Part shown: positions 26,041-31,533 of the stretch, piece after piece
Position numbering within the stretch: position 1 is the first letter of the stretch
Layout of the letters: each line of letters starts with the position of its first letter
Source of the DNA: an uncultured Bryobacteraceae bacterium
GTDB taxonomy: Bacteria > Acidobacteriota > Terriglobia > Bryobacterales > Bryobacteraceae
Assembly: GCA_937924525.1 (NCBI GenBank)
Contig: CALDSU010000014.1
Span: 1-64,000, forward strand
Direction of reading: 5' to 3'
Length of the DNA stretch: 64,000 bases
The notes under the pieces: generated by a model
The model's database searches: none
Seen by the model: the letters and a program-made list of their open reading frames with translations, nothing else
Told to the model about the DNA's origin: nothing
Program-made: the position numbers and the translations under genes

Positions 26041-26742
26041 TTACCGCTCCGTGAGCCGGAGGCGCCCGAACGCCGCCGGCGTGTGGTACGACGGGTTATT
26101 CACCGGCTGCCACACAATGTATTGGCGATGGGGGGGCGCGCCTTCGATCCGGTAGAGGTTCAGACGCAGTTCCTGGCCCGCCGCCGGCGCCCGCGGATCC
26201 AGCGCGCTCCACGGGAACCGCATTTCGCAAAACCACATTTTTCGTTCCCGGTCGACGCGCACCTTGTATTGCATTCCGGAATCCCAGAGCCAGTTCAGTT
26301 TGGGCCCTTTGCCCGGGATATACTGCACGTCGATGTCGACGAATTCGCCCTGCGGGGTGACCTCGATCTCCTTGTACCGGTTGATGTCCTGGAAATCATG
26401 GCCGATGAAGACCTCCACCACGTCATAGTCCCAGATGCCCCAGGTTTCCTTCTCCGGCGTCGGTTTGGGGGTCAGATGCATCGATTCGTAGTTTGCCGCA
26501 AACAGAAAATACAGACTGGCGTTGGTCCAGCGGCTGCGGATCTCGGTCCGGGCGGCGGGCAGTGGCTGGCCCCAAGGGTCGGTGGCCGCGACCGCCGGTT
26601 CGACGTCCCGCCAGGGGGCCGCGCTGGGGTCCGCGGTCAACTCGAAGTCCGCCGGGGCGCGGACACTCTTCATCACCCCGGTTCCCTCCGCCCAGAGCGG
26701 CAAGGCCAAAGCGCCAACCAGGAGCAAACGGTACAGGGCCAT
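26041..26742 (-). CDS. secreted carbohydrate-binding family 9-like protein
   Basis: A 233-residue exported protein (signal MALYRLLLVGALALPLWA) with a single beta-sandwich domain. Recognisable strands include TEIRSRWTNASLYFLFAANY, DYDVVEVFIG (around the metal-binding acidic residues) and RYKEIEVTPQGEFVDI. MRFPWSAL comes near the end. Proteins of this CBM9-like type bind sugars, or are co-expressed with exported sugar enzymes. It is downstream of the two paralogous secreted proteins. Confidence 0.7.
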   Translation of the reverse strand: MALYRLLLVGALALPLWAEGTGVMKSVRAPADFELTADPSAAPWRDVEPAVAATDPWGQPLPAARTEIRSRWTNASLYFLFAANYESMHLTPKPTPEKETWGIWDYDVVEVFIGHDFQDINRYKEIEVTPQGEFVDIDVQYIPGKGPKLNWLWDSGMQYKVRVDRERKMWFCEMRFPWSALDPRAPAAGQELRLNLYRIEGAPPHRQYIVWQPVNNPSYHTPAAFGRLRLTER

Positions 26743-26786: not shown

Positions 26787-27629
26787 CTACTGATTCCGCC
26801 CCTCGACCTCGCCGCCCGGGATCATCTGCGAATCGCTCGAAAACCTGCGGTAGTTGCCGTATCGGATCTCCTGCTCCAGGTGAAAATTCTTCACCATGCC
26901 CAGCTTGGCGGTGCCCGCGACCTGGATCAGCGACGGAACCCACATCCCCTGCTCTTGCCGCTGCGCAAAAACGAACCGGGCGCCGCGCTGCACCCGGACC
27001 AGGAATAACCCAAACGAAACCGTGTCGACCACCTCGGCCTCCGCTTTCACCCACTGGAAGTCTTCCTGGTCGATCCAAATCCTGCCGCGCACCTTCTTGA
27101 GAATCTCCGCGCGCCTTGCCCTGGGTTCGTAGCCGGGTTTGGGTTCGGCGTCGATCACCCACACCTGGTGGTTTTGGATGCTCTCCTCCCCCACCAGGCG
27201 GAAGTTGTACGCTTCCGGGACCTCACGGGCGAACTCGCGGTTCTGGCCCCGCTGTTTTTCGAAATCCCGCAATCGTTTCTCCCGCTCCCGCGGGCTCTCG
27301 CGGAGCCGGGCGGCCAATTCCCGGTCGAACTTCTTCTGCTCCTTCGCTGCCTCCTCCGGACTCAAGGGCTGATCGTCCTTCCGGATCAGGCGCTTATAGG
27401 GCGATCCTTCAACAATCACCACATCGTAAGTCTTCGCTTCCCGGTCGCTCACCGCGCCCTTCCTGTCCAGACGCCGGACCTCCACCCTCTCTTCAAAGGT
27501 GAAGTCTTTGAGCCGCGCCCAATTGGACTCGTCGCGCGACACCGACCGCCGCACAATATCCCGGGGATCGCTTTCCGCAACGAGCGCCGGAGCGGCGAAC
27601 GCCGCAAACACCAGCAGGGTTGCCCACAT
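26787..27629 (-). CDS. secreted protein of unknown function, tandem paralog B
   Basis: A 280-residue exported protein (signal MWATLLVFAAFAAPALVA). The first domain holds DFTFEERVEVRRLDRKGAV and VEGSPYKRLIRKDDQPLS. A central lysine/glutamate/arginine-rich coiled coil spans about residues 95-150, and a C-terminal beta domain carries GRIWIDQEDFQWVKAEAEV. The beta domain pattern resembles LolA/LppX-type lipoprotein carriers. It is a clear paralog of the gene upstream on the same strand (27667-28488), with matching blocks throughout. No enzymatic motif is seen. The longer open frame starting at 27728 is rejected because the signal peptide begins at 27629. Confidence 0.6.
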   Translation of the reverse strand: MWATLLVFAAFAAPALVAESDPRDIVRRSVSRDESNWARLKDFTFEERVEVRRLDRKGAVSDREAKTYDVVIVEGSPYKRLIRKDDQPLSPEEAAKEQKKFDRELAARLRESPREREKRLRDFEKQRGQNREFAREVPEAYNFRLVGEESIQNHQVWVIDAEPKPGYEPRARRAEILKKVRGRIWIDQEDFQWVKAEAEVVDTVSFGLFLVRVQRGARFVFAQRQEQGMWVPSLIQVAGTAKLGMVKNFHLEQEIRYGNYRRFSSDSQMIPGGEVEGRNQ

Positions 27630-27666
27630 ATGTCGATCAGTAGACGCGTCCGCGGCGCCTCTGGCT

Positions 27667-28488
27667 TCACTTCCGCGCAGTCTCAGCTGGCGGCTTCCGG
27701 AATCCGGAGTAGAGGATTTGCTGATCAATGCGGTAATGCTTGATCAACCCCACGCGGGCGTCCGCCTGCAAGTCGATTTTCGTCTGCACCCAATGCCCCT
27801 CGGCGGTCCGGGACTGCTCCACGACGGCGCGCGACCCTTTGTGCACACGCACGAGAATCCATCCGAATGAAAACGTGTCGAACAACTCGGCTTCCGCCCT
27901 CACCCACTGGAACTCTTCCTGATCGATGTACAACTTGCCCTTGAGGTGCGGGAAGATTTTGGCCCGGCGGTCCCGCGGCGAGTAACCCAGCCGCGGCTCG
28001 AACGAGGTCACCCAGGTTTTCCGCCCGTTCACAGTCTCTTCCCCGATCACCCGGAAGGTAAACGCGTCCGGCACCTCGCGGAGCGCGGCGCGGTTGCGTT
28101 CGCGGGCTTTTTCCGCCTCTTCCAGGCGTTTCCGGCGCTGCTCGGGAGTCTCCCGCCGCCGCTCTTCGGCGACCGCTCTCAGCTTGTCCTCTTCGAAACC
28201 GACTTCTGCCTCGGAGAGCGGCTTCCCATCCTTTTCCAGCAGCCTGCGATAGGGAGAGCCCTCCAGGAACAACACTTCGTGGGCTTTCTGCTCCGTCTTC
28301 TCGACCCGCCCGTCTCCATCCAGGTGCTTGATGATGATCCGCTCGTAATACTCGTAGTCCAGAATGCGGGGCCAGTTGTCCCGGTCCGCCAGTTGAGTCT
28401 TACGAATCAATGTGTTTCCATCCGGAAACGACGCCGGCAGGGCCTGCTGCGCGGCCATGAGACCTGCCATCATCCAAAGGATCGGCAT
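27667..28488 (-). CDS. secreted protein of unknown function, tandem paralog A
   Basis: A 273-residue exported protein (MPILWMMAGLMAAQQALPA). The layout matches its neighbour: a beta region with DYEYYERIIIKHLDGDGRV, the block LEGSPYRRLLEKDGKPLSE, a charged coiled coil (residues 85-135) and a beta domain with GKLYIDQEEFQWVRAEAE. The paralogs keep the same order of motifs but the identity outside the blocks is modest, so the duplication is old. The gene is divergent from the cytochrome lipoprotein at 28564, with 75 bases between starts. A GTG at 28494 is an alternative start. Confidence 0.6.
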   Translation of the reverse strand: MPILWMMAGLMAAQQALPASFPDGNTLIRKTQLADRDNWPRILDYEYYERIIIKHLDGDGRVEKTEQKAHEVLFLEGSPYRRLLEKDGKPLSEAEVGFEEDKLRAVAEERRRETPEQRRKRLEEAEKARERNRAALREVPDAFTFRVIGEETVNGRKTWVTSFEPRLGYSPRDRRAKIFPHLKGKLYIDQEEFQWVRAEAELFDTFSFGWILVRVHKGSRAVVEQSRTAEGHWVQTKIDLQADARVGLIKHYRIDQQILYSGFRKPPAETARK

Positions 28489-28545
28489 ATTCACAGGTTA
28501 ACTTGGCTGCCCCTGGCTGATCCGCGACCCTGGCGCGTTTCATCA

Positions 28546-28563: not shown

Positions 28564-31533
28564 ATGCGGAGTTCCAGTTCTTTGGCGCTTGCCTTTCTGG
28601 GTTTTTGGCTCTCATCGTGCGGGCGGTCGCCTTCGGCCGGCGCCCTCTCCCCCCAGGAGTCGTTGAAAGCGATGCAACTCAGCGAGGACTTCCGGGTCGA
28701 GTTGTTCGCCGCGGAACCCGATGTGGTCGACCCGGTCGACCTGGCCTTCGACGAGTTCGGCAGGGTTTACGTAGCCGAGATGCTGGACTACCCCGACGAT
28801 CCTCCGCCGGGCAAGCCGCCCCGTTCCCGCATCCGCCTGCTCGAAGACGCCGACGGGGACGGCAAGTTCGAAAAGAACACGATCTTCGCCGATCAGGTGC
28901 TGGAGGTCGCCGGCCTGATGCCGTTTCGGGGCGGTCTGCTGGTGCCCTCGGCGCCGGACATCCTGTTCATGAAAGACACCGATGGCGACGGCAAAGCGGA
29001 TGTCCGGGAGGTTTGGTACACCGGGTTTCCGAAAGTCAACCCCGAGGGCCGAATCACCAATTTCCGCTACAATATCGACAACTGGGTATACGCCGCGAAC
29101 AACGGGGCGAACGGCACCATCCTGTCAAAGATCAACCCGCAGCATCCGCCAGTGCTGGTGCGGGGCGCGGACTTCCGCTTCGATCCCATCCGGCACCGCG
29201 CCGAGCCCGCCTCCGGACCCACGCAGTACGGAATGGCGATCGATAACTGGGGCAACCGTTTCCTGACTCAGAACACGGTCCATGTCCGCCATGCCGTGGT
29301 GCCCATGCAATACCTGCTGCGAGCGCCGCTGTTGGACGCGGGGGACGTGTCGTTGAACATTTACAAGTATGAGGCGGCGCAGGCTAAGGTGTACCCGCTG
29401 ACCAAGCCGCAGGAATGGCGCGAGAAACGCACCCGGCTCCGCCAGGCGCGCTACGACGAGAACAAGCTCAACCGGATCGAGCAGGTGGGCGGCTACTTCA
29501 CCGCGGCCACGGGCGGCACGATTTACAACGGCGACGTCTTCCCGGAGGAGTACGTGGGCAACCTGTTCACCGGCGAGGTGAACGGCAACCTGATTCACCG
29601 CGACATCCTGACGCCGGACGGCGTCACATTCCGCGCGGCGCCCGCCCGCGAAGGCGTCGAATTCCTGGCTTCCACGGACGTGTGGTTCCGGCCCTGCAAC
29701 TTCGCCAACGCGCCCGACGGGTTGCTGTATTTCGCCGACATTTACCGCGAGTTCATCGAAACGCCCGAGTCCATTCCCGAGGAAATCAAGAAGGGAATGA
29801 ATTTCTACAGCGGGGATACGCTGGGCCGCATTTACCGCCTGGTCCCCAAGCAACCGCGCAGGCAGCGCAGCCTGAGGACCAACCTCGGCCGCCTGCCGGT
29901 GGCGGAACTGGTCCGCGAACTGGAGAGTACAAACGGCTGGAACCGGTTCACCGCGCAGCGCCTGATTGTGGAGCGGCAGGACAACAGCGCCGCGCCACAC
30001 CTCAAGGAACTGGCGGCGAAATCGAAGAGCCCGCTGGGCCGGATGCACGCTCTGTGGACGCTCCACGGACTGGAGGCGCTGGAAGCGCCGCAGGTCGAAG
30101 CCGCTTTGCGGGATCCGCATCCCGGGGTGCGGGAACAGGCCATCCGCATGGCGGAGCGCTTCCTCCCGGCGCTTGGTCCGGCGCTGCTGCGCATGGCCAA
30201 AGATCCCGAAATTCGCGTGCGGTATCAACTGGCGTTCACCTTGGGCGAGCTGCGCCAGGGAGACAGTCTGCCGCTGCCGGTGTTGCATACGTTGGCGGAC
30301 CTGGCAGCGGCGCACCAGCATGACAAATGGTTCCAGAAAGCCGTGTTAAGCTCCGTCGCGGGCAGCCCCGCGGAGTTCCTGCCGCTGCTCGTGTCGCGCC
30401 GCCAGTCCGGTTTGCTGCCGCAACTGGCGGCGTTGATCGGCGCCCGCGGCAAGCCGGCGGAGATCGGCCAGCTGCTGAGGGCGGTTTCGTCCTCGCCGGA
30501 GCCGGGTCCCGCGCTGGCGGGACTCGCCCGCGGCTTGCGCCTGAGCGGCGCCCGCAAGCTCTCCGTGCCCTCCGCCGAACCCCTGCTGGGACGTCTGTTC
30601 GCTCACCCCGACGGGAAGATCCAGGACGCCGCCTGGGAGGTGGCGCGCTACCTCGCCATGCCAAACCTGATCAATGCCGCGTTCCGGGAAGCCGTTGACG
30701 AGCAGACTGCGCCGGAGCGCAGGGCGCGGGCGCTGCGGGCGCTCCGGGGCGCGGATTTCGCCGCGGTGCAGCCGGTGACGGCCAAAGTGCTGGCGTCGCC
30801 CGCGCCCGCTGCGGTCCAGGTGGCGGCCATCGAGTGTCTGGCCTCATTCGAGGATCCCGGGGTTCCTGCCGCGCTGTTGGCGAACTGGCCAGCCTACGCG
30901 CCGGACGCCCGCACCAGGACCGTCGCCGCGCTGCTCACTTCCCAGGCCAGGATTGACGCGCTGCTGGAGGCGCTCAATCGCGGCGACATCGAAGTCGCGG
31001 CCCTCGACCTCGCCGCCCGCGCCCGCCTCCTCGAAACCGGAGAGCGCGCCCGCAAGCTGCTGCGCGCCCAGGAAGGCGACCGGATGAAGGTGGTCGAGGC
31101 GTACCGGGAAGCCACCACGCTCCCCGGCAACGTGGAGCGGGGCAAAGTTCTTTTTGAGGAAAACTGCGCCCGCTGTCATATGCCGCGCCGCGAGGGCGGC
31201 CGCATCGGTCCGGACCTGTCCGGCGTCAACAATAAGTCGAAAGAGGAATTGCTGACCTCCATCCTGCACCCCAGCTATGCCATCGATCCCCGGTATACGA
31301 ACTACATCGTCACCACCCGGGACGGCCACATGTACGACGGGGTGATCGCGCACGAAACCCCCGCCGTGCTGACCCTCCGGGGCGGCACCGAAGAAGGCGA
31401 CCAGGCGATCCTGCGCAAGAACATCGCCGAGATCCGCGCTTCCACCATTTCGCTGATGCCGGAGGACTTCGAGAAGACGATCAGCAAACAGGGCTTTGCC
31501 GACCTTCTGGCCTATCTGCGTGCGGGGCTGTAG
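28564..31533 (+). CDS. PVC-type membrane dehydrogenase: beta-propeller, HEAT repeats, cytochrome c
   Basis: A 989-residue lipoprotein with lipobox FWLSSCGRS (Cys 19). Residues about 40-420 form a sugar-dehydrogenase-like propeller (TIGR02604) with YVAEMLDYPDDPPPGKPPRS and NRFLTQNTVHVRHAV. Residues 420-800 are HEAT-type helical repeats. The last 150 residues carry a haem c site CARCH (near residue 866) in the TIGR02603 context GRIGPDLSGV, with a distal Met in ISLMPEDF. Such proteins are thought to oxidise sugars or alcohols in the periplasm and pass electrons to a cytochrome chain, but no substrate has been shown. Confidence 0.85.
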   Translation: MRSSSSLALAFLGFWLSSCGRSPSAGALSPQESLKAMQLSEDFRVELFAAEPDVVDPVDLAFDEFGRVYVAEMLDYPDDPPPGKPPRSRIRLLEDADGDGKFEKNTIFADQVLEVAGLMPFRGGLLVPSAPDILFMKDTDGDGKADVREVWYTGFPKVNPEGRITNFRYNIDNWVYAANNGANGTILSKINPQHPPVLVRGADFRFDPIRHRAEPASGPTQYGMAIDNWGNRFLTQNTVHVRHAVVPMQYLLRAPLLDAGDVSLNIYKYEAAQAKVYPLTKPQEWREKRTRLRQARYDENKLNRIEQVGGYFTAATGGTIYNGDVFPEEYVGNLFTGEVNGNLIHRDILTPDGVTFRAAPAREGVEFLASTDVWFRPCNFANAPDGLLYFADIYREFIETPESIPEEIKKGMNFYSGDTLGRIYRLVPKQPRRQRSLRTNLGRLPVAELVRELESTNGWNRFTAQRLIVERQDNSAAPHLKELAAKSKSPLGRMHALWTLHGLEALEAPQVEAALRDPHPGVREQAIRMAERFLPALGPALLRMAKDPEIRVRYQLAFTLGELRQGDSLPLPVLHTLADLAAAHQHDKWFQKAVLSSVAGSPAEFLPLLVSRRQSGLLPQLAALIGARGKPAEIGQLLRAVSSSPEPGPALAGLARGLRLSGARKLSVPSAEPLLGRLFAHPDGKIQDAAWEVARYLAMPNLINAAFREAVDEQTAPERRARALRALRGADFAAVQPVTAKVLASPAPAAVQVAAIECLASFEDPGVPAALLANWPAYAPDARTRTVAALLTSQARIDALLEALNRGDIEVAALDLAARARLLETGERARKLLRAQEGDRMKVVEAYREATTLPGNVERGKVLFEENCARCHMPRREGGRIGPDLSGVNNKSKEELLTSILHPSYAIDPRYTNYIVTTRDGHMYDGVIAHETPAVLTLRGGTEEGDQAILRKNIAEIRASTISLMPEDFEKTISKQGFADLLAYLRAGL

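Follow-up and report, generated by a model that had tools for sequence, protein, structure and literature searches.

LolA proper (PF03548) is an exported protein without a lipobox, and LprG and LppX are lipoproteins. RseB and MucB carry a LolA-like N-terminal domain. The LolA fold superfamily (CATH 2.50.20) is recognised by a single curved antiparallel half-barrel with an N-terminal helix. An excerpt of a published account describes the superfamily as unified by a hydrophobic ligand held in the pocket of the curved sheet under variable lids, with functions that vary widely and include the enzyme VioE (PMC6363788). In an excerpt of a study of Flavobacterium johnsoniae, only LolA1 of three LolA homologues affected gliding and amylase secretion (PMC11885536), so LolA-fold homologues need not share one role. 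Among open-licence PMC texts, no title or start of an abstract dealt with the family described below.

Here we describe two adjacent genes of an uncultured Bryobacteraceae bacterium, found in a window of 64,000 nucleotides (the whole stretch of DNA that was analysed), whose products P1 and P2 are predicted to adopt this fold:

27667..28488, minus strand: P2, a predicted exported LolA-fold protein with a charged helical hairpin (273 aa; open reading frame, family search, AF2 pLDDT 82.7, pTM 0.75)
26787..27629, minus strand: P1, the P2 paralog (280 aa; PF17131 E 2.9e-5, under the cut-off; AF2 pLDDT 77.4, pTM 0.72)

The two genes are co-directional, with an intergenic gap of 37 bp from P2 to P1, and an alternative GTG start for P2 lies six bases upstream, at 28494. 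P1 and P2 are 42% identical over 248 aa (E 9e-70), which is paralogy far beyond chance, and copies in other genomes are mostly nearer to P1 than to P2. Both open reading frames and their coordinates were confirmed, and both proteins show the blocks reported in the preliminary description in the same order: EGSPYxRL, then a charged helical block, then DQE(E/D)FQWV. Over 44 aligned rows of the family, the helices are preceded by a signature of approximately G-x-P-Y-x-R-L and followed by one of approximately W-I-D-K-x-x-Y-x-W-V-R-x-E-A-E. Both proteins begin with a hydrophobic stretch, the signal peptides being judged by eye, and neither contains a single cysteine; P1 and P2 are most likely exported, soluble periplasmic proteins.

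Sequence profiles give a partial link to the described families. The family profile (A3) comprises 40 of the 44 aligned rows, with L035, L062, L067 and the hairpin-less L051:2787 left out. PF17131 (LolA_like, outer membrane lipoprotein-sorting protein) matches 21 of these 40 members with E-values of 0.01 or lower, the best being 2.6e-6, and MucB_RseB matches two at the same threshold (best 6.3e-4); the unrelated families PA_decarbox and Stathmin each match one. P1 scores 24.2 bits against PF17131 (E 2.9e-5), below the gathering score of 30 bits; P2 has no PF17131 match and no credible Pfam or NCBIfam family, and PF17131 does not exceed its cut-off anywhere in the whole genome. The part matched in sequence by PF17131, 4z48 and MucB is the stretch directly after the hairpin (P2 ~140-168). 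Searches of PDB sequences gave nothing significant with the A3 profile (best E 0.037 and 0.11) and nothing better than E 0.38 with P2 in phmmer. No PF03548 match was found for P1 or P2; the profile comparison with LolA models that had been proposed gave one sub-threshold PF17131 match for P1 and none for P2. Nor did hhalign link the A3 profile to single LolA sequences, either that of this genome (probability 1.0%) or that of E. coli (0.2%).

The canonical LolA of the genome lies elsewhere, at G000:C9 (PF03548 E 1.7e-21), with a marginal second match at C4 (E 6.6e-5). Together with the missing PF03548 match and the lack of cysteine, this rules out that P1 or P2 is a canonical LolA or LolB. P1 and P2, having no cysteine, cannot carry the lipobox of LolB, and a lipobox-like pattern near the N terminus occurs in four of the 40 relatives.

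AF2 models, which had been suggested as a check, were built from a three-row alignment of P1, P2 and L034, a relative from a Terriglobia MAG. They reached pLDDT 83 for P2 and 77 for P1, and their best structural matches are proteins of the LolA superfamily. Foldseek returned 1421 PDB matches to the P1 model at E ≤ 10 and 12 at E ≤ 0.001: 4z48 (titled DUF1329; E 1.1e-5), Porphyromonas gingivalis LolA3 (two chains), NE2245 (two chains), 3bk5, MucB (two), RseB (three) and a LolA-LolB complex, with 3buu also named among them. All 12 appear, in part by their titles, to be of the LolA fold type. E-values of the best four entries run from 1.1e-5 to 1.2e-4, and the TM-scores of the 12 are low (0.18-0.35 by query length) at rmsd of 8-21 Å, for which the hairpin insertion may be one cause. 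In the VIA comparison, the best four matches gave Z 10.2, 10.1, 9.9 and 9.4 for P1 and 9.5, 9.5, 9.0 and 8.5 for P2, with 168-182 residues aligned at rmsd 5.1-7.3 Å. Porins follow close behind the LolA-type entries (Z up to 8.4 for P1 and 7.1 for P2), which cautions that generic beta sheet contributes to the score. The N-terminal helix and single curved half-barrel of CATH 2.50.20 are thus present in predicted form, at low TM-scores and high rmsd. The early guess of a lipoprotein-carrier fold gains support at the level of the superfamily, from the weak PF17131 matches in 21 of 40 members and from the Foldseek E-values of 1.1e-5 to 1.2e-4.

Compared with individual systems, P1 and P2 share with PF17131 and the structures 4z48, 3bk5, 3buu and 9tp6 a predicted half-barrel over nearly the full length. 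They differ from PF17131 in score, P1 falling under the cut-off and P2 having none, and in possessing the charged hairpin, which is largely absent from L078, an in-genome homologue. LolA proper belongs to the same fold superfamily, but P1 and P2 have neither its PF03548 match nor a profile link to single LolA sequences. RseB and MucB show weak profile and fold matches to the family; in contrast to them, P1 and P2 have no match to the RseB C-terminal domain, and the models contain no further domain. LprG and LppX have the same fold (VIA Z 6.4-7.4, rmsd 3.5-4.5 Å over 140-150 residues), whereas P1 and P2 lack cysteine and are only 10-16% identical to them.

The structural mark of the family is the hairpin itself:

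28063..28212, minus strand: P2 charged helical hairpin, residues 93-142 (AF2 helices 93-111, 115-137 and 139-142)
27210..27359, minus strand: P1 charged helical hairpin, residues 91-140 (AF2 helices 91-109 and 113-140)

Both models run in the order N-terminal helix, three strands, two helices forming the hairpin, and remaining strands. Over the 40 members, the hairpin helices (P2 93-111 and 115-142) are 57% and 53% charged, and V, I, L, M, F and W together make up only 13% and 16% of their residues. A solvent-exposed hairpin fits such helices, rich in charge and poor in apolar residues, better than a classical coiled coil. Of the coiled coil originally described, the charged helical block therefore stands, while the strict coiled coil is doubtful because there is little hydrophobic seam. 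The A3 profile and L078, from which most of the hairpin is missing, align nearly end to end and on both sides of the hairpin (hhalign, 216 columns, probability 97.4%, E 1.5e-11; a control alignment of the profile with the CBM9-like protein of the window reached 0.1%). Since L078 does without most of the helices and is nevertheless aligned across both sides, the best reading of the helices is that they are inserted into a single domain. The models indicate that P1 and P2 each form a single half-barrel of the LolA type, in which a highly charged helical hairpin of ~50 residues follows strand 3 as an insertion; this layout was read from the order of elements and from whole-model alignments, not from coordinates or strand pairing. 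Homologues without most of the hairpin are L078:1207-2028 (G000:C17) and L051:2787-3596, which are sisters in a quick tree.

The family is widespread. Of 61 near genomes searched with P2, 49 contain homologues (E ≤ 1e-5), and the A3 profile matched 190 of 200 genomes of the same bacterial family (138 of 140 good assemblies), often several times per genome, and 133 of 297 genomes of the phylum. Going by the best E-values listed, 10 genomes among the 190 and 33 among the 133 match more weakly than 1e-20, and these matches may represent hairpin-less homologues. In further groups of this phylum, the domain with the hairpin makes up the C-terminal half of seven longer proteins (L081:2023-3495, L082:2184-3944, L083:2221-3702, L084:2257-3855, L085:1461-2984, L095:1673-3151 and L100:2224-3792), which measure 490-586 aa with start codons unchecked. 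The N-terminal half of L085 weakly matches PF17131 (E 0.0074), and all seven may be double LolA-fold proteins.

Downstream of the hairpin, the alignment contains a conserved hydrophobic segment:

27832..27882, minus strand: P2 conserved hydrophobic segment, residues 203-219 (40-member alignment; putative lid)
26979..27029, minus strand: P1 hydrophobic segment, residues 201-217 (by alignment with P2 203-219)

P2 positions 206, 208, 211, 212 and 215 are V, I, L, M, F or W in 97-100% of the 40 members. A low-confidence stretch of the P1 model (207-209) falls inside the segment. From this conservation, the segment is read as a putative lid over a greasy pocket.

We consider it somewhat probable (roughly 55%) that P1 and P2 are periplasmic carriers or holdases of the LolA/LolB/LprG/RseB superfamily, with the charged hairpin as a docking arm. 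The half-barrel of each protein would hold a hydrophobic group, possibly a lipoprotein acyl chain or a lipid of the envelope, and the conserved segment 203-219 would cover it as a lid. The charged hairpin would dock to a membrane or protein partner, and the group would then pass to a membrane acceptor, the presumed direction of transport. P1 and P2 would act in parallel to the canonical LolA of the genome and not in its place. The same genome also encodes L077:712-1851 (G000:C5), in which LLPAC resembles a lipobox and which weakly matches DUF4292 and LolA_like. It shares four bases with the start of the gene for a MacB_PCD/FtsX permease (1848-2948) and is a candidate lipoprotein of the LolB kind, encoded next to an ABC permease. 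With a canonical LolA and such a candidate present, P1 and P2 are unlikely to be the main Lol factors. A bolder extension, which we put forward only tentatively, is that the family constitutes a second class of periplasmic carrier, common throughout this bacterial family and often present in several copies per genome; the hairpin would serve as an address tag for the acceptor and each paralog would handle a different set of lipids or lipoproteins in parallel to LolA.

A role other than transport, as a ligand-binding scaffold, an enzyme accessory or a VioE-like enzyme that shares the fold and binds a ligand other than an acyl chain, is possible but doubtful. The diversity of superfamily functions in the excerpt cited above, VioE included (PMC6363788), would allow for it, and the longer fused forms in other groups suggest uses besides shuttling. 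Genomic context is also compatible with it. Among 97 nearest neighbours of family genes, 80 were chosen for a Pfam tally, with genes called by a GC-position heuristic; the 17 left out were edge-cut, doubtful or overlong calls, the G110 and G261 tandem loci and two rows from the window. No lipid-transport family occurs among the 25 commonest of the 107 families in these 80 neighbours, and there is no recurrent lipid-transport context. Against a non-transport role stands the hydrophobic segment, whose strong conservation would suit a lid closing a greasy pocket. No family occurs in more than four of the 80 neighbours; adenylosuccinate synthetase is the most frequent with four, its gene purA adjoining the family gene in L041, L050, L058 and L069. 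A conserved operon was rejected, there being no recurrent partner beyond these four purA genes.

It is unlikely that P1 and P2 are stress sensors of the RseB/MucB kind, which would sense mislocalised lipid or lipoprotein and bind a membrane regulator through the hairpin without carrying cargo. The 12 Foldseek matches at E ≤ 0.001 include chains of MucB and RseB, the MucB_RseB profile matches two of 40 members, and MucB is among the top PDB sequence matches of the A3 profile, albeit at E 0.11. Both proteins, however, end after the beta domain with no match to the RseB C-terminal domain, and the 25 commonest neighbour families (of 107, in the 80 neighbours) include no sigma or anti-sigma family. 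Response-regulator and kinase domains were each found three times in the 80 neighbours.

A dedicated two-part relay or heteromer of P1 and P2, with carrier and acceptor in the style of LolA and LolB and serving the neighbouring exported proteins, is very unlikely. Two flanking genes are relevant here:

26041..26742, minus strand: CBM9-like protein (CBM9_1, PF06452, E 1.3e-7, over the cut-off; ~44 bp after P1, co-directional)
28564..31533, plus strand: divergent PVC-type haem-binding CxxCH protein (TIGR02604, TIGR02603, DUF7133 with E 1e-117, HEAT repeats)

The haem-binding protein is apparently a lipoprotein by its N terminus. P2, P1 and the CBM9 gene are perhaps one transcription unit; a promoter scan found none, and terminator-like sites numbered 6 against 3.0 expected. 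The adjacency, shared direction, 37 bp spacing and 42% identity of the pair favour a relay, as do both trees, which lean towards joining P2 with copies from genomes G028 and G007 and not with P1; this would make the split of P1 and P2 old. In the quick tree (55 rows) that grouping has SH-aLRT 98; in a careful tree of 31 of the 44 rows, from which 13 had been dropped for being divergent, long or near-identical, it stands at 92/93 with the bootstrap not settled. A clade of P1 and P2 costs 14.1 log-likelihood units in the careful tree and is not rejected (p-AU 0.185), so recent local duplication is neither shown nor excluded.

The side-by-side pair, however, was found by the P2 search in only one of the 61 near genomes, that of the window itself, although many assemblies are fragmented, so that further tandems may have escaped the search. 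In G028 and G007, the P2-like copy stands without a second one beside it. At least two other tandems exist among the phylum matches listed (G110:C64 and G261:C11), and both cluster by genome in the quick tree, with long branches. Neither P1 nor P2 has a cysteine for a LolB-type anchor, and the neighbours are not conserved. In the available flanks of 41 related loci, some of them on short contigs, neither the CBM9 gene nor the cytochrome gene (that of the haem-binding CxxCH protein) has a homologue at E ≤ 1e-8. CBM9 homologues occur in 27 of the 61 near genomes; in the 23 others that contain a P2 match as well, the listed positions are on different contigs or at least 67 kb apart, a comparison that used P2-search matches without the further profile-found copies. 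A functional link to either gene was rejected on this non-conserved association, as was a conserved tandem carrier pair, which would recur with its neighbours in other genomes. The preliminary description had taken the neighbour pairing as a clue to function, proposed a co-occurrence analysis with PVC-type lipoproteins and named absence of the pairing in other genomes as a refutation; by that standard the neighbour argument fails, with the tandem in one of 61 near genomes and no CBM9 or cytochrome homologue in the 41 flanks. The pair is a tandem whose age is uncertain and not a conserved two-part system, and its side-by-side layout looks incidental.

Finally, the arrangement initially described, two separate beta domains joined by a coiled coil, is highly improbable: the order beta, charged helix, beta is real in the sequence, but whole-model alignments run to single half-barrel chains and the homologue without most of the helices aligns across both sides.

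The finding is real but modest: a wide clade of the LolA fold superfamily, marked by a hairpin insertion and unnamed in the libraries searched. It assigns a protein family whose members P1 and P2 are nameless above Pfam and NCBIfam cut-offs, and which 190 of the 200 genomes from this bacterial family match, to the LolA fold superfamily, with the hairpin as its clear structural mark. If carriage of lipids or lipoproteins is true, the family would show a diversification of envelope transport beside the canonical Lol pathway.
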